Shown here piece after piece: positions 1 to 8,889 of a DNA stretch of 23,372 nucleotides. Each line of letters starts with the position of its first letter. Position 1 is the first letter of the stretch. This stretch comes from a virus. The position numbers were made by a program, and so were the translations under genes. The DNA lies in the IMG/VR virus record IMGVR_UViG_3300034104_001272, positions 1 through 23,372 of that record; one strand, written 5' to 3'. The notes beneath the pieces are model-generated. The model was not told the DNA's origin and did not search any database. It saw nothing but the letters and a program-made list of their open reading frames with translations.

Positions 1-247
1 TAAGTGATGCCTTGGCCCGCTCGGCTGGGCCTTTGGCGTTTTCTACAACTCCAGACATTCTGGCGCAAAAGGCTTTCTTACGGCCCTCATCAGCTTTTGT
101 CTTGGGGTTTGGTGCAGGAGCCTTGAGGTTCGAGCCAGTCTCGCGGTTGTACTTGGCTCGGCCCTTTTCTGTCAAGCCTGCGCCCTTGGATACAGGCAGC
201 TTCTCGCCACGACCGACAGAGAGTGAAACGCCTTTTTTGGTAGCCAT
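1..247 (-). CDS. DUF6321-like conserved phage protein, partial (3' end outside window)
   Basis: The reading frame starts at the ATG at 247-245 and is still open at the left edge, giving 82 visible residues. It is Lys/Arg-rich and reads MATKKGVSLSVGRGEKLP, then TEKGRAKYNRETGSNLKAP at about 26-44 and a KKAFCARM segment at 57-64. I recognise this pattern (GRxKYNRxTGSNLKAPxP...KxFCARM) as the small basic phage family called DUF6321, found in many aquatic phages; its function is unknown. The stop of terL and this start share one base (TGATG), so the gene is very likely translationally coupled to the terminase. It may be a structural or DNA-binding accessory protein, but nothing in the sequence proves that. 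Confidence 0.8.
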   Translation of the reverse strand, partial: MATKKGVSLSVGRGEKLPVSKGAGLTEKGRAKYNRETGSNLKAPAPNPKTKADEGRKKAFCARMSGVVENAKGPAERAKASL

Positions 248-1788
248 CACGAACCCATCCATGAAGTGAAAGTAGCGCCGTTTTGAGCGTTGCGCCGGGT
301 GGTTGTTCGTTCATTGTACTCCCGATGTGCCACGGGATGTGCAAATGTTACGGCAATCGCATCGGCTGCGTCAGGAGAGGCCAGTCCACGGGCTTTCATT
401 TCCTTCTTGCCTTCCAAAAAAATGGTGCCAGCCGAGTTGGGCTTCTTCATCGGGCCGACCAAATCGCTCTTGAGCAGCCTGTCCTGCGGAATCGAAGCGG
501 TCTTGAGCCAGTCGCGCATTGCACCCCAGATCTCAGCCCGCTTGTTGCCCCACATGGTCGGGTTCTTGGCCTTCCAGCCGAAGTTGACCCCGCGCACTTT
601 GTACTTCTGCTCGGTCAATCTGTCAAGGATGCCGTAGCCAAGCCCACCCTCGTCGATCACGGTCAGTGCTGGCCGGTACTCCTCGATGGCGTCAATGACG
701 TGGCCCACGGTGGTCATGGTGTCGTCGCCCTTGAACCGCTTGATCGCCACGATGTCACGCCCACGGCGCACGGCGATCACGGTGCTGTCCATGCCGCCAC
801 GGGCCGGGTCAACGCCGATCACGATGGGTGCAGTCATGTCCTTGTACTGTGGCCGCTTCATGGCGTCATCTACGCTGTGTGGTGCGATGAACTGGTCTTG
901 GCCTGACTTGGGGAAGTCACCATACACCTCGACCCGCGCCTCGTCGCTGTCCTCACCGTACTCGTTGATGATCTGCTGGTAGATGCTCTTGTCGGTACCC
1001 TCGACTGTGCGGGCGTCGATCTTCTCGCTCTCCCAGAACTCCCGTTTACTGCCGTCCACGGCCTCGTAGAAGTACCCGGTGTTGCGACGACCGTTACTGA
1101 ACGCCAGCCAGTACCGATCCAAGATGTTCTCTGTAAAGAAGCCCGCAGCCACGGACCAGATGCTGTCCGGGATACCTGACGCCTCGTCGAAGATCACCAT
1201 CATGCCGTCCATGTTGTGGACACCGGCGTAGGCGTCTGGGTTCTCCTCGCTCCACAGCTTACCCTCAGCGCCCCAGTACCGGGTGCCCTTCTTGAGGTCA
1301 CGCTCGACCAACTCAGTCAACCAGTTGGCTGGGTTTAGGCTCGTGGCCGTTGGCTCCCACCAGTGGGCGTTGATCGCCATCGTGACCCACTTAGTCAACT
1401 CACCCCACGTCACTTTACGCAACTGGTTCTCGCTGTTGGCACTGACAATCACGCTTGACCCGATCCGGGTACTCAGCATCCACAGGATCAGCCACGACAC
1501 GAGTGCAGACTTGCCCACACCCCGGCCAGAACTGATGGCCCTGCGCATCGCGTCGATCAACTCATCGTTGGTCAGCTTGCCCCGGTTCTCCTTGATGAAG
1601 TCCCGTATCCTGCGCAGCGTCCTGCGCTGCCACGCACGAGGGGCTTTGAAGTGTTCGAGTGGGGTGTTCTTCTGCCCCCAAGGGAACGCAAAGAGCACAA
1701 ACGCCTCAGGGTCGTCCTTGATAGACGGACTCCAAAGCTGGGCCATGAGCATCTGCTCGTCTTCAGGCGAGTAACGAGGCTTCTGCAT
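247..1788 (-). CDS. terL: Terminase large subunit (packaging ATPase/nuclease)
   Basis: This 513-residue protein is the motor that translocates DNA into the prohead and cuts the concatemer. The N-terminal ATPase shows a Walker A, SGRGVGKSA, at 87-95 and a Walker B, MMVIFDE, at 196-202. The C-terminal RNase H-like nuclease shows its acidic residues in VIGVDPARGG (D327), TVIDEGG (D379) and SPDAADA (D473/D476). Length and motif order are complete and normal for the family. The start at 1788 has a good Shine-Dalgarno (CTGGAG about 9 nt upstream) and overlaps the terS stop by one base (TGATG). Its stop overlaps the next start in the same way. The packaging strategy (cos or headful) cannot be read from this protein by eye. 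Confidence 0.96.
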   Translation of the reverse strand: MQKPRYSPEDEQMLMAQLWSPSIKDDPEAFVLFAFPWGQKNTPLEHFKAPRAWQRRTLRRIRDFIKENRGKLTNDELIDAMRRAISSGRGVGKSALVSWLILWMLSTRIGSSVIVSANSENQLRKVTWGELTKWVTMAINAHWWEPTATSLNPANWLTELVERDLKKGTRYWGAEGKLWSEENPDAYAGVHNMDGMMVIFDEASGIPDSIWSVAAGFFTENILDRYWLAFSNGRRNTGYFYEAVDGSKREFWESEKIDARTVEGTDKSIYQQIINEYGEDSDEARVEVYGDFPKSGQDQFIAPHSVDDAMKRPQYKDMTAPIVIGVDPARGGMDSTVIAVRRGRDIVAIKRFKGDDTMTTVGHVIDAIEEYRPALTVIDEGGLGYGILDRLTEQKYKVRGVNFGWKAKNPTMWGNKRAEIWGAMRDWLKTASIPQDRLLKSDLVGPMKKPNSAGTIFLEGKKEMKARGLASPDAADAIAVTFAHPVAHREYNERTTTRRNAQNGATFTSWMGS

Positions 1789-2372
1789 CAGTTGTTCTCC
1801 AGTCTTGGTGTCACATCTGAGACATCAATTACCTCACCCTCAATCACCCGAGCCTGTGCTTGTGCCAGCGCCTCAGTGATAGAGATGGTGCCACCGAGTT
1901 CAATCTGCTTGGTCTCGCCGTAGCGTTTCCTGTTATGCGCACTCATGAGCCACTTGCGCGTGTCGATGCGCAACTTGTCCCTGTTGACCGTATCGTTCGA
2001 TTGTGGGTCAACGGCCTCGGCCCCATCGGCAATCTCAATGATCTCGCCAGCCAAGAACTCAGTGCGCATCTCTTGCGCTTCCTTGAATCGCTCATGACGA
2101 ACCGGGTCACGCTTGATCCAGCGCAGAAAGTCCTCGTAGCTCACGAGTCGTGGGTCATCCTCGACAAGGGACTTGAGTGAGCGTCCACGGTAGACCTGTT
2201 CGATGAAGTTCTCGAACATGTTCTCGTATTGCAGGTGCAATAGCTCCCGCGCCACCTTGGAAGCATTCGAGGTTATCGGGGTGCTTGGTGGTGCATCTGG
2301 CACGGACAGCCAATTGGGTAGCGATTCATCGGTGACAACCGTGCCTACGAACGAGTTAGTGTCTTGTTTCAT
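1788..2372 (-). CDS. terS: Terminase small subunit
   Basis: A 194-residue protein directly upstream of terL. It has a helical, HTH-like middle (YEDFLRWIKRDPVRHERFKEA, about 99-119) followed by AGEIIEIADG and RDKLRIDTRKWLMSAHNRKRYG, a layout typical of small terminase subunits that bind the packaging site and regulate the large subunit. Its N-terminal 40 residues are polar and probably disordered. The start is the first ATG after the control region; a weak Shine-Dalgarno (GTAGG) precedes it. As first gene of the leftward unit it lies about 40 bp downstream of a candidate promoter that overlaps a palindromic operator. Assignment rests on composition, the RDKLRIDxRKW segment and position. Confidence 0.88.
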   Translation of the reverse strand: MKQDTNSFVGTVVTDESLPNWLSVPDAPPSTPITSNASKVARELLHLQYENMFENFIEQVYRGRSLKSLVEDDPRLVSYEDFLRWIKRDPVRHERFKEAQEMRTEFLAGEIIEIADGAEAVDPQSNDTVNRDKLRIDTRKWLMSAHNRKRYGETKQIELGGTISITEALAQAQARVIEGEVIDVSDVTPRLENN

Positions 2373-2409
2373 AGTGCCTACAGTGTACTACGGGATGTTC
2401 ATGGTGTCT

Positions 2410-2439
2410 AGTGTACCCATTGGGTTTTTGATTTTTGAA
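2410..2439 (-). promoter_or_regulatory. Candidate left-facing promoter with embedded operator
   Basis: On the minus strand, TTCAAA (2439-2434) and TACACT (2415-2410) are separated by 18 bp and face terS. Each hexamer matches the sigma-70 consensus at 4 of 6 positions, so on its own this is weak. The perfect palindrome at 2415-2425 fills the downstream half of the spacer and touches the -10. This mirrors the geometry of the much stronger right-facing promoter at 2903-2930. Confidence 0.45.
2415..2425. promoter_or_regulatory. Palindromic operator copy, left edge (ACCCATTGGGT)
   Basis: This is the outermost left copy of the 11-bp inverted repeat ACCCANTGGGT. Read toward terS it is ACCCAATGGGT, the same central base as the right-edge operator read toward the early genes. 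It overlaps the candidate leftward promoter, so a bound protein would block RNA polymerase there. Confidence 0.7.
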
Positions 2440-2529
2440 AAAAATTTCACGGGTTTTGTGATGCCTACGTAGCCGTGACCTCTGGGCGCTCGGCCCTACC
2501 CCCTCCCCCCTGATCAAGCGCACCCCTGC

Positions 2530-2656
2530 ACCCAGTGGGTCAACACCCCAGCACCCAGTGGGTCAGTCAACCCAGTGGGTTTCGGGGGTCAAGATGCACC
2601 ATTTGCACCCAGTGGGTCAATGCACCCAGTGGGTCATTTGCTTGCACCCAGTGGGT
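2530..2656. repeat. Cluster of six identical ACCCAGTGGGT palindromes
   Basis: Six identical copies lie at 2530-2540, 2553-2563, 2570-2580, 2607-2617, 2624-2634 and 2646-2656, with start-to-start spacings of 23, 17, 37, 17 and 22 bp. All have G at the centre on the plus strand. Flanks are also conserved: GC or TGC before and TCA after in most copies, so the extended site approaches TG(C)ACCCA-N-TGGGTCA. A one-base-degenerate copy follows at 2679-2689, and intact copies with a central A lie at 2855-2865 and 2914-2924. The array could be an operator array, replication iterons, or both. Confidence 0.9.
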
Positions 2657-2712
2657 GAGGGAATCCCTCGATTGCATGACCCAATGGGGCAAAAAGGGCG
2701 TGATTCGGGCAA

Positions 2713-2829
2713 CCTGTGACAAAATTCCTCCGCGCGGGCGAGGCTTAAAAAATCACCTTTTTTAAATTGCACAAGGATTAAGCAAGTACCCAAATCCCCA
2801 CCCCCCATTTTGAGTCCATTTGTCACAGG
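2713..2829. other. AT-rich hairpin inside a long inverted repeat; possible origin element
   Basis: CCTGTGACAAA at 2713-2723 and its exact reverse complement TTTGTCACAGG at 2819-2829 form an 11-bp inverted repeat 95 bp apart. Between them, TTAAAAAA (2745-2752) and TTTTTTAA (2758-2765) form an 8-bp AT-only inverted repeat with a 5-nt loop. There is no credible gene here. An easily melted stretch next to an iteron-like array is what many phage and plasmid origins look like, but this is inference from layout only. Confidence 0.5.
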
Positions 2830-2854
2830 CAGCATGGAAGCCTTTAAACAGCAT

Positions 2855-2865
2855 ACCCAATGGGT
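2855..2865. promoter_or_regulatory. Palindromic operator copy (ACCCAATGGGT)
   Basis: An intact copy of the palindrome with central A, 59 bp upstream of the copy inside the rightward promoter. No convincing promoter hexamers surround it. It may be an auxiliary site for looping or cooperative binding. Confidence 0.7.
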
Positions 2866-2902
2866 AGGGAAAGTACCTAGAAGATTTTTTTCGTTTAGGG
2901 TA

Positions 2903-2930
2903 TTGACACAATGACCCAATGGGTTAGAAT
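2903..2930 (+). promoter_or_regulatory. Strong rightward early promoter with operator in its spacer
   Basis: A perfect -35 TTGACA (2903-2908) is followed after 16 bp by TAGAAT (2925-2930), a 5-of-6 match to the -10. The palindrome ACCCAATGGGT at 2914-2924 lies wholly in the spacer and ends at the base before the -10. A protein bound there would exclude RNA polymerase. The first downstream ATG is at 2964, after a good Shine-Dalgarno. Confidence 0.82.
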
Positions 2931-2963
2931 TGAGCCATCATCAACCAGTAAGGAGTAAACGTA

Positions 2964-3152
2964 ATGCGAACCATGAAGACACTGATTAGCTATGACGCTA
3001 TCCCAAAAAGCGCCGTCTATCTCGGAAGTGAAGACGGCGGCGGCTCACTCGATGAATTCACCTATGACCTGATCGAAAACGCTGACGATCCTGTGCGCTA
3101 CCGCGATGAAGACGGGATCAATCACTACTTTGAGTTGATCAACCTGTATTAA
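2964..3152 (+). CDS. Small acidic early protein, unknown function
   Basis: A 62-residue acidic protein (about 16 Asp/Glu), MRTMKTLISYDAIPKSAV..., with no domain I recognise. It is the first gene after the early promoter. AAGGAG at 2950-2955 lies 8 nt before the chosen ATG; an internal ATG at 2973 is a possible but less well spaced start. First genes of phage early operons are often small host-takeover or anti-defence proteins, but nothing here shows a specific role. Confidence 0.75.
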   Translation: MRTMKTLISYDAIPKSAVYLGSEDGGGSLDEFTYDLIENADDPVRYRDEDGINHYFELINLY

Positions 3153-3157
3153 ACCCA

Positions 3158-3175
3158 GCGGGGCGCAAGCCCCGC
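3158..3175 (+). other. Intercistronic hairpin with GCAA tetraloop
   Basis: GCGGGGC (3158-3164) and GCCCCGC (3169-3175) form a perfect 7-bp GC stem closed by GCAA, a stable GNRA tetraloop. No U-tract follows, so it is not a classical terminator. It sits just after the first early gene and before the first leader repeat, and could protect or partition the mRNA. Confidence 0.6.
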
Positions 3176-3179
3176 ACCC

Positions 3180-3193
3180 TGTAACCCGTAACC
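3180..3193 (+). repeat. Leader repeat copy 1 (TGTAACCCGTAACC)
   Basis: First of three identical 14-nt elements before early genes. It ends 17 nt before the ATG at 3211, and a TAAGGA Shine-Dalgarno follows it. Confidence 0.75.
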
Positions 3194-3210
3194 ACTGTAA
3201 GGAATCAATC

Positions 3211-3414
3211 ATGTTTGACACTGGATATTTCACCATCAGCGACTCAGGTAAACGCAGCCGCCACTTGTCGTTCGAGTTAGCCGCATACACCGCGCACCGC
3301 CGTTCAGACATTGAGCGCGTGATTGAGATTGAGCGCGTCATTGTCAATGGTCAACTGACAATTCGTGAGCGAGACGTCACAAGTCAAGCCCTTGACCTGA
3401 TTTCCACACTGTAA
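3211..3414 (+). CDS. Small early protein, unknown function
   Basis: A 67-residue protein, MFDTGYFTISDSGKRSRH..., with no recognised domain. Residues 34-42 contain a near-duplicated IERV/IEIERV segment, mirrored in the DNA as repeated GAGCGCGT. The start follows leader repeat copy 1 and TAAGGA (3198-3203). The stop codon lies inside CTGTAAGGA, so termination and the next gene's Shine-Dalgarno coincide, which suggests translational coupling to the 32-residue gene downstream. Confidence 0.75.
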   Translation: MFDTGYFTISDSGKRSRHLSFELAAYTAHRRSDIERVIEIERVIVNGQLTIRERDVTSQALDLISTL

Positions 3415-3426
3415 GGAACCGACACC

Positions 3427-3525
3427 ATGACCCGCGAAACCTTGACCAATGTTCTTTTCGCCGTGCTTATCGGCTTAGCACTGTGCGCCCTTGTGCTGCA
3501 TGGCCTCGATGCACTTTTTCTGTAA
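3427..3525 (+). CDS. 32-residue single-pass membrane micropeptide
   Basis: The frame reads MTRETLTNVLFAVLIGLAL followed by CALVLHGLDALFL and a TAA. Residues 8-25 form one hydrophobic segment long enough to cross the membrane. AAGGAACC overlapping the previous stop gives a Shine-Dalgarno at normal distance. The stop codon lies within leader repeat copy 2. Very small early membrane peptides in other phages act on host envelope processes or superinfection, but this one shows no specific motif. Support comes from the ribosome site, the tight fit between neighbours and the clean membrane segment. Confidence 0.6.
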   Translation: MTRETLTNVLFAVLIGLALCALVLHGLDALFL

Positions 3526-3534
3526 CCCGTAACC
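3521..3534 (+). repeat. Leader repeat copy 2 (TGTAACCCGTAACC)
   Basis: Identical to the copies at 3180 and 3767. It contains the stop codon of the 32-residue gene and ends 19 nt before the ATG at 3554. Confidence 0.75.
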
Positions 3535-3553
3535 TTGTAATTGGAGATTGACC

Positions 3554-3712
3554 ATGAACCAATACGCCGCAACCATCGAAACCAATGATGACGAACTGAA
3601 CCGCGAAACATTCGAATATGACGCATTCAGCGCCAGTGAAGCGCAAGCCTACGCAATGGACGATCTTCAAGACAATCAGCGCATTGTCGCCATCTGGCAG
3701 CGCATTTTGTAA
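3554..3712 (+). CDS. 52-residue acidic early protein, unknown function
   Basis: The protein begins MNQYAATIETNDDELNRETF and ends NQRIVAIWQRIL. It is strongly acidic in its first two thirds and amphipathic helical at the end. A TTGGAG Shine-Dalgarno (3541-3546) lies 7 nt before the ATG, after leader repeat copy 2. The shared leader puts it in the same regulated group as the genes at 3211 and 3798. Its size and charge would suit a DNA-mimic or an inhibitor of a host DNA-binding protein, but that is speculation; no family is recognised. Confidence 0.65.
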   Translation: MNQYAATIETNDDELNRETFEYDAFSASEAQAYAMDDLQDNQRIVAIWQRIL

Positions 3713-3726
3713 AGATAACCCAGCCT

Positions 3727-3745
3727 AAAGCCCTGTTCGGGCTTT
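3727..3745 (+). other. Intercistronic hairpin
   Basis: AAAGCCC (3727-3733) pairs perfectly with GGGCTTT (3739-3745) over a 5-nt loop. It is followed by GGGG rather than a U-tract, so efficient termination is doubtful. Like the hairpin at 3158, it lies shortly upstream of a leader repeat. Confidence 0.55.
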
Positions 3746-3766
3746 GGGGTGTGCATCTCGCCACCT

Positions 3767-3780
3767 TGTAACCCGTAACC
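3767..3780 (+). repeat. Leader repeat copy 3 (TGTAACCCGTAACC)
   Basis: Identical to the other two copies; ends 17 nt before the ATG at 3798, with CTGTAAGGA between. Confidence 0.75.
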
Positions 3781-3797
3781 CTGTAAGGATCAACATC

Positions 3798-4223
3798 ATG
3801 ACTGCAACACTTGACACAATCGACACCCTCGAATCATTGCCCGTAAAAATCGACTATGTGGGCCAAACCAAACGCGACCACAATTGGGACTGCGACCAGT
3901 GGCGCGTGACTCTTTCGAGTAGGGCAGGGTTTCACTCTTTCGACTATTTCACCGGCTTGGGACTGCGCCACAAACCCAAAACATCATGGGTGACACCAAC
4001 ACCAAAGAAACCCAAAGTCGCGGACGTGCTGCACTCGCTGATCATGGACGCCAGCGCAGCAGATGAAAACTTTCACGACTGGTGCGCGAATTACGGCTAT
4101 TCGGACGACTCCATAAAAGCCATGAACACCTATAAAGCCTGTCTGGAAATTGCCGTGGCACTGCGCAAACACTTTTCACCCGACACACTGCGCCAAGTGC
4201 GCGAACTGTTGCAAGACTACTAA
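3798..4223 (+). CDS. Conserved phage hypothetical protein
   Basis: A 141-residue protein. The frame extends upstream to 3744, but the start at 3798 is chosen because TAAGGA and leader repeat copy 3 precede it. It has an N-terminal beta-rich part with WRVTLSSRAGFHSFDYFTGLG (wrap at 38-58) and a helical C-terminal half with VADVLHSLIMDASAADENF and WCANYGYSDDSIKA. I recognise this layout (FDYFTGxG..., DVLxSLxxDA...FxxWCxxxGYdxDSxkA) as a conserved family in proteobacterial phages and prophages. No biochemical role is known to me. It is probably cytoplasmic. Confidence 0.8.
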   Translation: MTATLDTIDTLESLPVKIDYVGQTKRDHNWDCDQWRVTLSSRAGFHSFDYFTGLGLRHKPKTSWVTPTPKKPKVADVLHSLIMDASAADENFHDWCANYGYSDDSIKAMNTYKACLEIAVALRKHFSPDTLRQVRELLQDY

Positions 4224-4239
4224 ACCCGGAGCACTGACC

Positions 4240-4455
4240 ATGAAACACACTTTTAAATTGTCCATTGACTGCGCGAACGCTGCATTCTGCGAAGACGACA
4301 CCCCGACACCAGAAAGCGCAGCCCCTGAACTGGCCCGCATTCTTCGCGCAATTGCTGACCGTATCGAGTCCGGCGACACCTTTGACACTTTCCGCAACTG
4401 CCACGACATCAACGGCAACACCGTGGGCACTTTCGCCCTCAAGACGGAGCAATAA
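4240..4455 (+). CDS. Conserved small phage protein, unknown function
   Basis: A 71-residue protein starting MKHTFKLSIDCANAAF. An upstream extension of the frame to 4150 is rejected because it overlaps the previous gene and lacks a ribosome site; CCGGAG lies before 4240. The pattern of F-L-I-x-C-x-N-A-A-F at the start, PELARILRAIADRIESG at 29-45 and DINGNTVGTFAL at 56-67 recurs in small proteins of many phages (ARILRxxAxxxxxG...DxNGNxVGxF). Function is unknown. It sits 16 bp after the previous gene and 3 bp before the next. Confidence 0.75.
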   Translation: MKHTFKLSIDCANAAFCEDDTPTPESAAPELARILRAIADRIESGDTFDTFRNCHDINGNTVGTFALKTEQ

Positions 4456-4458
4456 ACC

Positions 4459-4722
4459 ATGATCGACTTAACCAAACTTGACCCCACCGAAGCAGAGCGC
4501 ATTGCATATGCTGAGGGCTTTACTGGTGTATCTGCTTTGTATTCCCGCCTGAGCGATGCTGAACATTTGGTTAGCACTCAAGCGGATGAAATCGAAGCAC
4601 TCAGAGACACCCTGCTTCAGTGTTTGCCCTTTTTTGAAGACTGGAAAGACGAAAACGGGGTCTATAAGCCCCAAACCATGCAATTCATGATCAAGAAAAT
4701 CCGTCAATCACTCGGGGATTAA
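4459..4722 (+). CDS. Coiled-coil early protein, unknown function
   Basis: An 87-residue protein. Residues 1-25 (MIDLTKLDPTEAERIAYAEG...) are followed by a predicted coiled coil at about 28-54 (heptad-like LSDAEHLVSTQADEIEALRD) and a short basic tail. GGAG at 4446-4449 precedes the ATG at a suitable distance. Its TAA directly abuts the next ATG. No family is recognised. Confidence 0.7.
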   Translation: MIDLTKLDPTEAERIAYAEGFTGVSALYSRLSDAEHLVSTQADEIEALRDTLLQCLPFFEDWKDENGVYKPQTMQFMIKKIRQSLGD

Positions 4723-4797
4723 ATGATCACCGCCCTCCTGATCGCCTTGGGGGTAGCCGTGGCTATACCCCTGATAGAACGCTTTTTAGACCTTTAA
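4723..4797 (+). CDS. 24-residue hydrophobic membrane micropeptide
   Basis: MITALLIALGVAVAIPLIER followed by FLDL and TAA. Residues 2-18 are almost wholly hydrophobic and could span the membrane once. The ATG abuts the stop of the previous gene, and CGGGGA just upstream could serve as a weak ribosome site. Very short length makes this uncertain, but it fills the gap to the next gene and matches the other early membrane peptide at 3427 in style. Confidence 0.45.
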   Translation: MITALLIALGVAVAIPLIERFLDL

Positions 4798-4816
4798 CCA
4801 TAGGACACCCCCACCC

Positions 4817-5119
4817 ATGACCGAAACCCCCCTCAAACCCTTGAAAATCCCCCCTGCTGGGTCACTGGCCGAACGGGTCAGGCACACCCTCGACCGCTTA
4901 CACCTCGACGACACCCGTGGCGCTGCTTATCTGGGCGTGCCCGTGTTCACTGTTCGCAAGTGGATCACGGGCGAACGTGAGCCGGGCGCAGCCGTGGCCC
5001 GTCTACTCGATGTGCTGGGCATGGTCGAAGCACTGGCCCCCGCGCTGCATGGGTCGTTTATGCCATCGGAACCTGTTCAAGTGAAGAAATCCCGAACCAA
5101 GAAGGAGAAGATGCAATGA
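4817..5119 (+). CDS. HTH DNA-binding protein (Cro/C1-like)
   Basis: A 100-residue protein with a helix-turn-helix at about 31-52: DDTRGAAYLGVPVFTVRKWI, where AAYLGV forms the first helix end/turn and PVFTVRKW the recognition helix. This is the XRE/Cro-like pattern in which a partner-free helix reads operator DNA. The C-terminus is Lys-rich (KKSRTKKEKMQ). It is a candidate binder of the ACCCANTGGGT palindromes 1.9 kb upstream, since it is the only clear HTH protein in the operon they control. TAGGA before the ATG is a modest Shine-Dalgarno. Its stop overlaps the next start (ATGA). Confidence 0.75.
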   Translation: MTETPLKPLKIPPAGSLAERVRHTLDRLHLDDTRGAAYLGVPVFTVRKWITGEREPGAAVARLLDVLGMVEALAPALHGSFMPSEPVQVKKSRTKKEKMQ

Positions 5120-5340
5120 CCGCCCTTGAACACTTCGAGAAACTTTATGGTGACCTGAACCTTTCGCCCGAGGATGCGGCCAAATGGGTCTTTTTATCGG
5201 GCTGGAACAGTGCCATGCAGGAGGCCATGAAGCGCGTCAACGCCATGCCCTTTGGTGACGATACCCGCGCATCATTTGCTGTCTATTTCCAGCAGATGAT
5301 GGTGATTGACCCCTCGACCATTCAGGAGAAGATGCAATGA
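5116..5340 (+). CDS. Small early protein, unknown function
   Basis: A 74-residue, helix-rich protein, MTALEHFEKLYGDLNLSPED..., with Trp/Phe-containing amphipathic helices (WVFLSGWNSAMQEAMK). It overlaps both neighbours by four bases (ATGA). Its last residues (QEKMQ) and the junction DNA AGGAGAAGATGCAATGACC are identical to the end of the previous gene, so the ribosome site and overlap were duplicated. No family is recognised. Confidence 0.7.
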   Translation: MTALEHFEKLYGDLNLSPEDAAKWVFLSGWNSAMQEAMKRVNAMPFGDDTRASFAVYFQQMMVIDPSTIQEKMQ

Positions 5341-5762
5341 CCAAAGACGAAGCATTGGACTTGGCGCTGGAGGCGTTGGCAACAGAGGAATATCGGCTGC
5401 GTCAAATAGGGCAAAGTCAGGTGTATCCCGGCATTGGTTTTGCCATCACCGCCATCAAGCAAGCCCGTTCAGCACCTGCGCAGGAGCCTGTGGCGTTTAA
5501 CGCAGGCGTTCCGTTGCTCTACCCAGAGATGAAAGACGGCGAGACCATTTCTGTTGAATACACCACCCAACCCGCAGCACCTGTGCAGGAGCCAGCAATC
5601 AAGCAAGGCTGGGATGTGGACACGCTGCTCGACAAACCCGCAGCACAGCGGCAATGGACGGGGCTGACGGATGAGGAGCGCAACAAGATACGGTTCGACT
5701 ATTTGGACTATGACGAACGTGCCCGAGCCATCGAAGCCAAACTTAAGGAGAAGAACACATGA
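5337..5762 (+). CDS. Phage hypothetical protein with internal Pro/Ala repeats
   Basis: A 141-residue protein. Residues 1-43 form an amphipathic helical start (DEALDLALEALATEEYRLRQ). A low-complexity middle follows with two related segments, SAPAQEPVAF and AAPVQEPAIK; the DNA repeat CAGCACCTGNGCAGGAGCC occurs at 5470-5488 and 5575-5593. The end (WTGLTDEERNKIRFDYLDYDERARAIEAKLKE, long helix) is charged. This modular style resembles variable accessory proteins of lambdoid and other phages (Ead/Ea22-like), where such repeats mark recombination points. That comparison is impressionistic. AGGAGAAGATGCA gives the ribosome site. Confidence 0.7.
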   Translation: MTKDEALDLALEALATEEYRLRQIGQSQVYPGIGFAITAIKQARSAPAQEPVAFNAGVPLLYPEMKDGETISVEYTTQPAAPVQEPAIKQGWDVDTLLDKPAAQRQWTGLTDEERNKIRFDYLDYDERARAIEAKLKEKNT

Positions 5763-5887
5763 ACCAATGCAAACACCGCTGGCTGCTGACACCCTCGCAG
5801 ACTGGCACCCGATACCATTACCAATGCGCCAAATGTGCCCAAGTGGCATGGGCCACGATTAAGAAGGAAAACAATGACCCATTGTGA
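5759..5887 (+). CDS. 42-residue zinc-knuckle microprotein (CxH...CxxC)
   Basis: The protein reads MNQCKHRWLLTPSQTGTRYH then YQCAKCAQVAW and a basic tail. C4-x-H6 and C23-xx-C26 are spaced as in a small zinc ribbon. AAGGAG (5745-5750) lies 8 nt before the ATG, and ATG overlaps the stop of the previous gene (ATGA). It overlaps the next gene by 14 nt. Such microproteins in phages may bind nucleic acid or host RNA polymerase, but no specific role is shown. Confidence 0.7.
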   Translation: MNQCKHRWLLTPSQTGTRYHYQCAKCAQVAWATIKKENNDPL

Positions 5888-5984
5888 CGACTGCAAACGA
5901 CTCAGACTGCCAGAAGGCGGGGTGCAGATGTCCCCCACTCGCTGGATATGCGCTGAGTGTTGGCGAAAATTCTTTACCAGTTAG
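5874..5984 (+). CDS. 36-residue zinc-knuckle microprotein (CxxC...CxxC)
   Basis: MTHCDDCKRLRLPEGGVQMS is followed by PTRWICAECWRKFFTS and TAG. C4-xx-C7 and C26-xx-C29 form a paired CxxC zinc-ribbon signature. GAAGGAA just upstream is the ribosome site, and the gene overlaps the preceding zinc protein by 14 nt in another frame. It is the last gene before the bidirectional terminator. The pairing of two different zinc ribbons in tandem suggests related or joint roles, which is inference. Confidence 0.7.
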   Translation: MTHCDDCKRLRLPEGGVQMSPTRWICAECWRKFFTS

Positions 5985-5992
5985 GTAAACAA

Positions 5993-6019
5993 AAAAAGGG
6001 GACCAGTGGTCCCCTTTTT
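5993..6019. terminator. Bidirectional intrinsic terminator
   Basis: A five-A run (5993-5997), GGGGACC (5998-6004), loop AGT, GGTCCCC (6008-6014) and a five-T run (6015-6019) form a strong symmetric hairpin with U-tracts in both directions. It ends the rightward early operon and the leftward primase gene, whose stop codon overlaps the last T. Confidence 0.92.
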
Positions 6020-8505
6020 CATTCGTCCATGTCCGGGGTGTACCCCTTGACCAGTTTTCGCTCTTTGGGCGACAGTGCATAGATCTCATCCCGCTGGCGC
6101 TGCTTAGCCCTCAGAATGGCCTTGCGCTGCTCCTCAAACGTGGTCAGGATGGCCGGATTGATGGCCCACTCTGCTATGTGCCTGTGCACCTTTGACCCGT
6201 CATCGGTTCGGATCACGTACCGGGCCTGCTCCAGATCGCTCATGGTGTCAATGACCAGTTGATCTTTGGCCCAGTCGCTCATACTGTCGGGCCACTGCCT
6301 ACGGGCTGAACGCTTGATCTCTGACAAGGTGATCTTGCCCTGTGTGGCGTGCTGGACAATGTGCTCAGTCAACCACTTGTCGAACTCCCTACCCATCCCC
6401 TCATCGAAGGCGTACCGATAAGCCGGAACAAGGTAGGTTTTGGCAAACTCGACAACCCTTTGAGCCACATCGCCCGAGACCTGAGTGCTAAACGGGGTCT
6501 CGATCACGTGCCAGATCAGCATGAGCCGCCCGACTGTCCCCTCCAGCTTACCGAAAGCTGTCATAAACACCGGGCCGCTGTGCAGCAACACCTCGTCCTG
6601 CATCTTCTCGTTGTACCAGTACTGGAATTCCCGGTAAATGGCGAACGCCTCAGGGGACAGCTTGTACACCTGCGCTGGCAGGCTGTACGCCAAGCGCATC
6701 ACGCTGTCCCACGCCGCTGTGTTGACCATGAAGTCAGGCAGGGGCTGGCCCACGCCCCAATTACGATCTCGCAGCATCACGGGGATAAACCGCTGGAGCA
6801 GGCCGTCTGCTGCCAGTGACCTGCTGTTCTCCCGGAACACCTGCGGCTGGACGTTGCCGTAAATGCCCACGGCGAAGTTTTCGGCAAGGATAGACCCAGC
6901 GCCCACCCGGTCCATCTTGTAGTAATCGGCCTCATAGGCCACGACCCACGCTGATCGGTCATCGCCGCTGGACCTGTCGGTCATCTTGCCAATCCAGCCA
7001 TTCATCTCGTCCAGCACACACAGCAGCCCACGGGGATTGTCCGCTGCGTCACGCACCAGCTTCTGGCTGGTCACATCAGCGGTGACGATCTTCAGTGGTG
7101 CTGGTCGCTGGGCCAGATCGGGCACTGATGGGGCCAGATCACCACCGAGCAGGGCGTCAGGGCTGGCTGACCATTCGAGAAAGGACTTTTTGGCGCTGTT
7201 GTATGCCGCCTCCTTGCCCTCCCACTCCAGTGCTGCCTTGCTGTACCTCGGGCCGTCCTCCATCTCCAAATAGCGCAGCGTGGTGAACATGGGCTTGGAC
7301 GCCGGGGACTTCTTGAGAGACGGCTTGCCAATCGTCATGACCCACAGCACTGGGGGCACTTGATACCGGGGCATCAACTCCAGCCGGGAGCGTGCGTCAA
7401 TGGCCCCGCAGACAGCGGCCAACCCAGCGAACAAAGGGACCAAAGGGTCGCTACCCATCTCGCTTCCTATTTGCAGCGCACGATCACGCAGCACTGTGGG
7501 AAAAAGGTCCATGTTCACATCGGGTGCGCTGATGCGAAACCCCTCAATCAACTGGTCAGGGGTGACTGTGGGAGCCTCCACGGCGCTGAACAACTCGGAC
7601 GCATCGGGCAGGGGTCTGCTCCAGCCGTGCTGCTTGGCAATGTGAAAGAGTGTCCCCAACTTGACAGCGGTGGCCTTGTCAGGCTTGAAGCTGATCCACT
7701 GGGTCAGGATCTCACGCTCGCCGGGGTACTTGGTCTGGGCCGTGGCGCTCCACTCGTTCCACAAGGCCAGAGCCTGCTCAAGCTGGTCGGTCTGGGTGCC
7801 TGCCCAGTGCAGGGCCATGCCGATGCCCACCCATTCGTCACGGGTGCAGTCAGCAGGGACCGCATCGAGGGCTTGCCTGATCTCCTCCCACGAGGCGTCT
7901 ATCGTGCCGTCCGTGGCGATGGTGCGCTCTTTGTCCTGCGCCAGCAGACCGCCCCACAAGTCCAGCAGACCTTGGGGGATCATGGGCAGACGGGTCCAGT
8001 GGCCGTGGCCTGCCCAGTGGTAGGGCTGAAGTGTCTCGGGGTGTATGGACGGCGGCAGAACGTCCTGCACCGTGACGCCGCTGACAGTGGCGCAGCGCAG
8101 CTCGTATGCCGTGATGCCCCCGTGCATGATCTTTTTACTCGGCAGCGCAGCGCCGAAGGGCATCGCGTACAGCAGCTTGCCGTGTCCGGGCTTGCCCGAG
8201 TTGATGACCACGGCATCGGACGCAGCGTAGAGGGCATCGAGGTCAATCCCGTGCTCTGCCAGTAGGCTGGTCGTCACGGTCCAGTTGTCAATGTCAAGGG
8301 CCATCGTGCCGCTGTACGCATGGGCTAAGCCGATGCCGTAACCCGGTGGCAAGTCGCCTTGGGCCTTCAGGGCGTTCTCTCGCAGGTTCCACCCCGGTGT
8401 GCGTGGCCCCTTGGTATTGGCTGGGATGGGCACAAGTGACCACCCGTGCCGGATGTACGCATCGACTGACGCTGGGTGAGATTGCACGGTTTGAGGGGCT
8501 GTCAT
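6019..8505 (-). CDS. Primase-helicase: PrimPol + PriCT-2 + DUF3987
   Basis: An 828-residue replication protein. Residues about 10-185 form an archaeo-eukaryotic primase (bifunctional primase/polymerase) domain: GWSLVPI, motif I LDID (D71, D73), motif II region SGKPGHGKLLY (103-113) and motif III AYELR (E135) before VLPPSIHP (149-156). Residues about 205-295 match a PriCT-2 domain. From about 330 onward lies a DUF3987 helicase-like ATPase with Walker B LLCVLDE (494-500); its P-loop is poor (TIGKPSLKKSPAS, 391-403). The frame extends to 8643, but the added residues run through the promoter and hairpin, so the ATG at 8505 is chosen; it overlaps the stop of a 15-codon leader ORF. It makes primers and probably unwinds DNA for the family B polymerase. 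It is transcribed alone against its neighbours. Confidence 0.9.
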   Translation of the reverse strand: MTAPQTVQSHPASVDAYIRHGWSLVPIPANTKGPRTPGWNLRENALKAQGDLPPGYGIGLAHAYSGTMALDIDNWTVTTSLLAEHGIDLDALYAASDAVVINSGKPGHGKLLYAMPFGAALPSKKIMHGGITAYELRCATVSGVTVQDVLPPSIHPETLQPYHWAGHGHWTRLPMIPQGLLDLWGGLLAQDKERTIATDGTIDASWEEIRQALDAVPADCTRDEWVGIGMALHWAGTQTDQLEQALALWNEWSATAQTKYPGEREILTQWISFKPDKATAVKLGTLFHIAKQHGWSRPLPDASELFSAVEAPTVTPDQLIEGFRISAPDVNMDLFPTVLRDRALQIGSEMGSDPLVPLFAGLAAVCGAIDARSRLELMPRYQVPPVLWVMTIGKPSLKKSPASKPMFTTLRYLEMEDGPRYSKAALEWEGKEAAYNSAKKSFLEWSASPDALLGGDLAPSVPDLAQRPAPLKIVTADVTSQKLVRDAADNPRGLLCVLDEMNGWIGKMTDRSSGDDRSAWVVAYEADYYKMDRVGAGSILAENFAVGIYGNVQPQVFRENSRSLAADGLLQRFIPVMLRDRNWGVGQPLPDFMVNTAAWDSVMRLAYSLPAQVYKLSPEAFAIYREFQYWYNEKMQDEVLLHSGPVFMTAFGKLEGTVGRLMLIWHVIETPFSTQVSGDVAQRVVEFAKTYLVPAYRYAFDEGMGREFDKWLTEHIVQHATQGKITLSEIKRSARRQWPDSMSDWAKDQLVIDTMSDLEQARYVIRTDDGSKVHRHIAEWAINPAILTTFEEQRKAILRAKQRQRDEIYALSPKERKLVKGYTPDMDE

Positions 8506-8679: not shown

Positions 8680-8889
8680 ATGCGTACCAACCAACCCAAA
8701 TCAGCGTTCATGACTGTCCGAGTGACAGACAAGACGCGCACCCAGTTTCATGACAAAGCACAGAAGATCGGCACCCCGAGCGAAGTGCATCGTGAAATCG
8801 TCGAGGCGTTTGTAGAAGACCGCCTCACAATCCAACCCCCTGTAATCCGTAAACTGGAGAAACTTTATGTCACTCGAACTCAAAATTGA
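8680..8889 (+). CDS. Ribbon-helix-helix (Arc/CopG-like) regulator
   Basis: A 69-residue protein with the RHH pattern: beta strand FMTVRV (10-15), helix A about 17-30 (DKTRTQFHDKAQKI) and helix B about 33-47 after the turn GTPS. Such proteins dimerise and insert paired strands into DNA at short repeats spaced about a turn apart. It is first in the rightward replication operon, next to paired GCACAA repeats, so autoregulation is likely. AAGGAA lies 7-8 nt before the ATG. The C-terminal 20 residues are outside the RHH core and overlap the next gene. Confidence 0.72.
   Translation: MRTNQPKSAFMTVRVTDKTRTQFHDKAQKIGTPSEVHREIVEAFVEDRLTIQPPVIRKLEKLYVTRTQN

Follow-up and report, generated by a model that had tools for sequence, protein, structure and literature searches.

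A conserved palindrome array between the early and terminase genes of freshwater podoviruses is a probable operator array for a phage-encoded HTH protein

Between the divergently transcribed early and terminase genes of an uncultured lake-water phage, an 11-bp palindrome occurs as a cluster within 510 bp of the contig analysed here (23,372 bases, called the window throughout). We judge this cluster, with a probability of about 0.65, to be the operator array of an HTH protein that the phage encodes in its own early operon, and that would turn the early genes off and probably the late genes on. After infection, host RNA polymerase would fire the near-consensus early promoter (2903-2930), and the HTH protein, as it accumulates, would bind ACCC-ANT-GGGT as a dimer. 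At 2914-2924 it would cover the spacer between -35 and -10 and silence the early operon, to which its own gene belongs, and at 2415-2425 it would probably contact RNA polymerase and switch on the late operon from the weaker terS promoter. The copies in the core of the array may raise local occupancy or form a higher-order complex that couples both promoters. The features are collected in Table 1.

Table 1. Features of the control region and its flanking genes, with positions in the window.
Feature	Position	Strand	Basis
Large terminase gene	247-1788	-	Homology
Small terminase gene (terS), Sf6-like, first late gene	1788-2372	-	Homology
Predicted late promoter, TAGACA-N17-TACACT, 9/12 consensus	2382-2410	-	Sigma-70 scan; equivalents in relatives
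Putative operator O-late, upstream of the late (terS) promoter and 4 bp from its -35	2415-2425	-	Motif and promoter scan; conserved in relatives
Conserved A/T-tract box abutting O-late (GTGAAAATTTTTTCAAAAATCAAAA in relatives)	2426-2450	-	Alignment of relatives
Putative core operator 1 (ACCCAGTGGGT)	2530-2540	no strand	Motif scan
Putative core operator 2	2553-2563	no strand	Motif scan
Putative core operator 3	2570-2580	no strand	Motif scan
Putative core operator 4	2607-2617	no strand	Motif scan
Putative core operator 5	2624-2634	no strand	Motif scan
Putative core operator 6	2646-2656	no strand	Motif scan
Putative degenerate core operator, ACCCAATGGGG	2679-2689	no strand	Motif scan and alignment of relatives
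Putative second early operator, lying 59 bp upstream of the one in the promoter	2855-2865	+	Alignment of relatives
Conserved GGGAAAGYACCTAGAAGATTTTTTTCG box upstream of the early -35, UP-element-like	2866-2893	+	Alignment of relatives
Predicted early promoter, TTGACA-N16-TAGAAT, 11/12 consensus	2903-2930	+	Sigma-70 scan
Putative operator O-early, within the early promoter spacer, abutting the -10	2914-2924	+	Motif and promoter scan
Accessory ORF, not conserved, the first one after the early promoter	2964-3152	+	ORF list, relatives
XRE/lambda-repressor-like HTH protein of 100 aa, proposed as cognate regulator; Lys48 in recognition helix 43-51	4817-5119	+	Homology, model
Predicted site form AGCCANTGGCT, proposed counterpart of ACCCANTGGGT for the Asn48 protein of the relative L226			

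A scan of the window located nine exact copies of ACCCANTGGGT (starts 2415, 2530, 2553, 2570, 2607, 2624, 2646, 2855 and 2914) and one degenerate copy with a single mismatch at 2679; exact copies outside 2415-2924 were absent from the whole contig, and the reversed pattern, used as a control, had 0 matches. The preliminary description had counted the same nine exact and one degenerate palindromes, confined to this interval, and had given the core spacings as 17, 22-23 and 37 bp; we measured 23, 17, 37, 17 and 22, followed by 33 to the degenerate copy. When up to two mismatches were allowed, 27 matches were found versus 12.6 expected, a number reached in 0 of 100 shuffles, and this surplus is due to the array. 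That description had also sorted the central base of the copies by position, which holds in this record; among relatives the rule is a tendency only, as both the core copies and the centre of the terS-side site vary (of 50 control regions, 34 have A at that centre, 12 G, 3 C and 1 T). An Rfam search of positions 1500-6100 gave no match.

The array is a real and recurrent feature of a P22/Sf6-like podovirus group. A terS search of IMG/VR yielded 80 loci, and nearly all of those with the control region have exact sites in it, up to nine of them. The 51 deduplicated control regions hold 3-10 sites each (mean 6.7, with the relaxed form ACCC[AG]N[CT]GGGT counted), some relatives having mainly ACCCAGCGGGT or ACCCGCTGGGT in place of ACCCANTGGGT. 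All 16 larger records (35.9-47.4 kb) contain 4-10 exact copies, and in the 15 whose copies could all be placed they lie within a single region no longer than about 1.2 kb; the sixteenth, G027 (47 kb), has two further copies beyond the matches listed. Copies scattered through the genome were looked for both in the window and in its relatives and did not occur, and conservation did not fail either, the array recurring in nearly every relative. Site centres were the same in 46% within one genome versus 21% between genomes, and this higher likeness suggests that sites are copied within each array or are under matched selection there. Phage DSL-LC05 from Dishui Lake, whose TerL shares 92% identity with that of the window, has a 37.6-kb circular genome with a P22-type structural set and no annotated integrase, and has been predicted to be virulent (PMC10611076). 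When 84,980 bacterial and archaeal genomes were searched for the terminase, only one relative was found, on a 3.2-kb MAG contig, and the search therefore gave no prophage or host evidence.

The preliminary description proposed the binding array of a phage master regulator, with the HTH protein as its first candidate, and both proposals are well supported by conserved sites, by their positions within promoters and by a single cognate HTH protein that is predicted to bind them. Every one of the 40 relatives whose early-side sequence exceeds 4.5 kb encodes a homologue of this protein, while the neighbouring early genes are patchy. An IMG/VR scan for close palindrome pairs, in which no protein was used, returned 113 loci, some of them from the same contigs, and among these the HTH gene accompanied 40 of 60 loci with at least four sites versus 4 of 53 with two or three (Fisher p = 3e-11). 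Several of the 20 loci with at least four sites and no HTH gene are short or cut contigs, and for three (L135, L138 and L143) a whole-record search found the gene elsewhere in the record. The ACCCANTGGGT clusters of L188/L197 and L115, where the HTH gene is absent, were treated as unrelated, which is not proven; that of L188, a distant phage, lies within AT-rich AACCCA/TGGGTT repeats and includes a AACCCAYTGGGTT cluster at 1786-1988. We rejected as arrays L106, a 171-kb phage in which a 21-bp unit repeats regularly, and L102, L126, L134 and L171, which appear to be short tandem repeats.

The AlphaFold model of the HTH protein (pLDDT 85) has the five helices of an XRE/lambda-repressor-like fold, with a recognition helix at residues 43-51 and the first 16 residues unstructured. 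Fold matches in the PDB were weak, the HTH proteins among them all being of the lambda-repressor-like class, the Pfam HTH_3 score was below cut-off (14.2 vs 23 bits), and profile searches matched MqsA, HigA2 and P2 C. The best profile match to a solved structure was the MqsA HTH (E = 1.5e-4, over the HTH part only). MqsA reads ACCT-N3-AGGT through Asn97 and Arg101 (PMC4901048, PMC5422877), and these align ungapped with Phe44 and Lys48 of the phage protein, placing the base-reading residues at equivalent positions. The array site had been said to match no known operator; its 11-bp geometry with a 3-bp centre is nevertheless that of the MqsA operator, the half-site being ACCC here and ACCT in MqsA. 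The two proteins differ in that the 100 residues of the phage protein are an HTH with unordered tails, lacking the zinc N-terminal domain of MqsA, and in the phage context; no gene for MqsR, the toxin partner of MqsA, was seen beside the HTH gene, where the neighbouring ORFs are accessory genes. Because the gene is present in all 40 relatives with enough early-side sequence, the operator layout equals that of MqsA and the sites have changed in lineages with a different residue 48, the HTH protein is very probably the binder of the array.

In that last change, residue 48 of the recognition helix varies together with the second base of the half-site. All Lys48 proteins found pair with ACCC-type arrays, even at 33-40% identity (L127, L090, L193 and L156) and in the distant L143 record, whose TerL is 48% identical. 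Four lineages (L222, L225, L226 and L238/L239) have Asn48 (LRNWRTGKR), and these carry A[GT]CCANTGGC[TC] at the early promoter instead of the ACCC site, exact ACCCANTGGGT being absent from L222, L225 and L226. Their early promoters read TTGACA-ACGTG-AGCCAATGGCT-TATACT in L226, TTGACT-TAGTA-AGCCATTGGCC-TATACT in L225, TTGACT-GACTA-ATCCAATGGCT-TATACT in L222 and TAGACT-ATAT-AGCCATTGGCT in L238, so that the half-site is altered at its second base and its promoter position is unchanged. The Asn48 lineages form one clade and therefore represent one evolutionary event, and within this clade other helix residues (Arg50, Lys53) and the RHH and TerS proteins differ too. The covariation strongly suggests that Lys48, the equivalent of MqsA Arg101, sets operator specificity.

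Early genes run rightward from 2964 and terminase genes leftward from 2372. A plain sigma-70 scan of positions 1700-5200 found two promoter-like sites alone, 2903-2930 (+) and 2410-2382 (-). Shuffled sequence gave 2.1 such sites on average, so neither score nor number is evidence for these promoters; the evidence is their conservation and their relation to the operators. In 35 of the 51 deduplicated control regions a site occupies the spacer, 16-17 bp long, that separates a TTGACA-like -35 from its -10 (at least 9 of 12 matches). In about one third the early site departs from this strict spacer position, lying over or beside the -35 or being accompanied by a weak -35. A second site 58-60 bp upstream of the early site is common, and 59 bp is the most frequent site spacing across the 51 regions. 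A protein bound in the spacer must compete with RNA polymerase, and repression is therefore the natural reading; judged from the anatomy of the site, it is highly likely that the HTH protein represses the early promoter through O-early. A leader, GTAACCCGTAAC, is repeated before several early genes (3181, 3522 and 3768), in relatives too.

The terS side is arranged differently. Late promoters match the consensus at 5-9 of 12 positions versus 9-12 of 12 for early promoters (51 control regions). The terS-proximal site starts 53-54, 62-65, 72-74, 86, 95 or 106-107 bp before the ATG, distances that are phased at 10.6 bp (R = 0.84, 35 contexts). For 22 cassette/position combinations R was 0.86, a value reached by 0 of 20,000 uniform or jittered draws in a test that counts promoter cassettes as independent, which they are not fully, as recombination seems to have spread a 33-bp element. 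One promoter cassette occurs at several phases, e.g., 65, 73-74 and 106-107. Helical phasing among all sites of the 51 control regions, core included, was absent (R = 0.04 at 10.5 bp), and therefore the phase is to the late promoter; together these results argue against looping between operators as its cause. Phase to the terS promoter implies contact with RNA polymerase there, so that the movement of O-late in whole helical turns from terS suggests activation. That the HTH protein activates the late promoter we regard as somewhat better than an even chance.

Several further features were observed on this side. The terS -10 lies about 17 nt before the ATG and ends about 10 nt before it (2372-2387, minus strand), a spacing kept in relatives, and the terS mRNA may thus be nearly leaderless. 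Beside the terS-side site, at 2460-2479, is a strongly conserved GATGCCTACGTAGCCGTGAC block with the palindrome TACGTA. Five relatives (L015, L016, L017, L055 and L068) share the 33-bp element between O-late and differing terS promoter cassettes; the element carries a second operator that is one base longer, ACCCCANTGGGT, and its distribution suggests modular exchange among terS cassettes.

The main competitor is an HTH protein that only represses, in the manner of Aca or Cro proteins, at both promoters or at the early one, with the late genes activated in some other way. An operator within the early spacer and a regulator encoded in the operon that it would control are what such a protein would have, and the inverted repeats to which Aca1 and Aca2 bind overlap -10/-35 (PMC8434428). 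This explanation does not account for a terS-side site that is clear of the late promoter and keeps its helical phase over 53-107 bp, nor for the weakness of that promoter, and we consider it unlikely, though the strongest of the alternatives. Identity of the binder is a separate matter, for which the preliminary description had also named the conserved ribbon-helix-helix (RHH) protein encoded at 8680-8889. Proteins of this type bind short palindromes; here, however, the DNA-reading strand varies among relatives (SAFMTVRV, SAYLTVRV, TKFLTVRL, TKFLSTRV) while the ACCC operator stays the same, and the gene lies outside the early operon, making this protein a very improbable binder and a weaker candidate than the HTH protein. 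Packaging (pac) sites bound by TerS are the least credible explanation of all: terS always adjoins the array in relatives, but packaging gives no reason for a fixed site in the spacer of the early promoter, at least 0.5 kb away, and the motif is unchanged although TerS falls to 38-40% identity (L090, L193).

A replication initiator had been suggested as well, and the array would then be an origin whose iteron-like sites are recognised by the HTH protein or by a different initiator. The array is multi-copy, intergenic and variable in copy number, an inverted repeat GTGACA..TGTCAC is conserved in 25 of the 51 regions with its arms about 107 bp apart, and DnaA boxes occur in 8 of 51. Against this, the spacings are irregular and not helically phased (17-37 bp in the core of the window), rather than the regularly spaced direct repeats of iterons, in the window and relatives alike; the most conserved sites are the two that belong to promoters, not the core array, and GC skew in DSL-LC05 makes no clear switch at the region. 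The initiator proposal thus gained no support, and we think it improbable that the array itself is an origin; an origin or replication role in the same region is possible. In the window a perfect 11-bp inverted repeat (CCTGTGACAAA / TTTGTCACAGG) occupies 2713-2723 and 2819-2829, 95 bp apart, and may serve a second protein as its binding site or belong to an origin. The DnaA-box-like TTATCCACA, often an inverted pair around an operator, was seen in L005, L009, L016, L034, L064, L067, L075, L083 and their equivalents.

The closest logic to that of the proposed HTH operator array appears to be found in phi29 p4 and the Aca repressors, and the circuit would be p4 logic built from an MqsA/Aca-like part. 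At early promoters, p4 sites overlap the -35 and the protein represses; at a late promoter whose -35 is poor, it acts as an activator (PMC3100819). As in phi29, a single early phage protein would act at several inverted-repeat sites between early and late promoters, sites overlap early promoter elements, and A-tracts (which matter for p4) adjoin the site. The late promoter here is the weaker one and has a helically phased upstream site, from which it may be activated. The p4 system differs in its long sites (CTTTTT-N15-AAAATG), in working with p6 and in a fold described as novel (PMC3100819), whereas here a lambda-repressor-like, XRE-type HTH would act on 11-bp sites in a variable array of 3-10 copies under divergent transcription. 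Aca1, Aca2 and Aca10 are also small HTH proteins of phage early operons that autorepress through an inverted repeat over -10/-35 (PMC8434428, PMC9410881), and the protein described here is likewise encoded in the operon whose promoter bears its predicted inverted repeat, where it would act as a repressor. Aca sites are about 20 bp long and few, in contrast to the present late-promoter site and array, and no known acr gene was recognised here. Lambda CI and Cro are HTH dimers with multiple palindromes between divergent promoters, and CI both represses and activates (in part PMC3100819); unlike lambda, a lysogeny module is absent here, DSL-LC05 being predicted to be virulent and the terminase search having given only the one MAG contig.

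The core copies of the HTH array may serve cooperativity, titration (as a timer) or the assembly of a larger complex. We suggest, tentatively and as a doubtful extension of the main reading, that a protein of about 100 aa, MqsA/Aca-like, may be the whole early-to-late clock of a large lytic freshwater phage group. Such a clock would work by occlusion of the early spacer and by activation from any whole-turn position over 53-107 bp, with the copy number of a fast-evolving, unphased cluster timing the switch. The array gives these abundant, uncultured freshwater podoviruses a concrete candidate circuit, with an operator, a cognate protein, a putative specificity residue (Lys48) and both promoters, and it provides a natural series in which HTH proteins change operator preference and an upstream site shifts by helical steps. 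With it, the early-late switch would have a further route, one that is non-lysogenic and MqsA/Aca-like.
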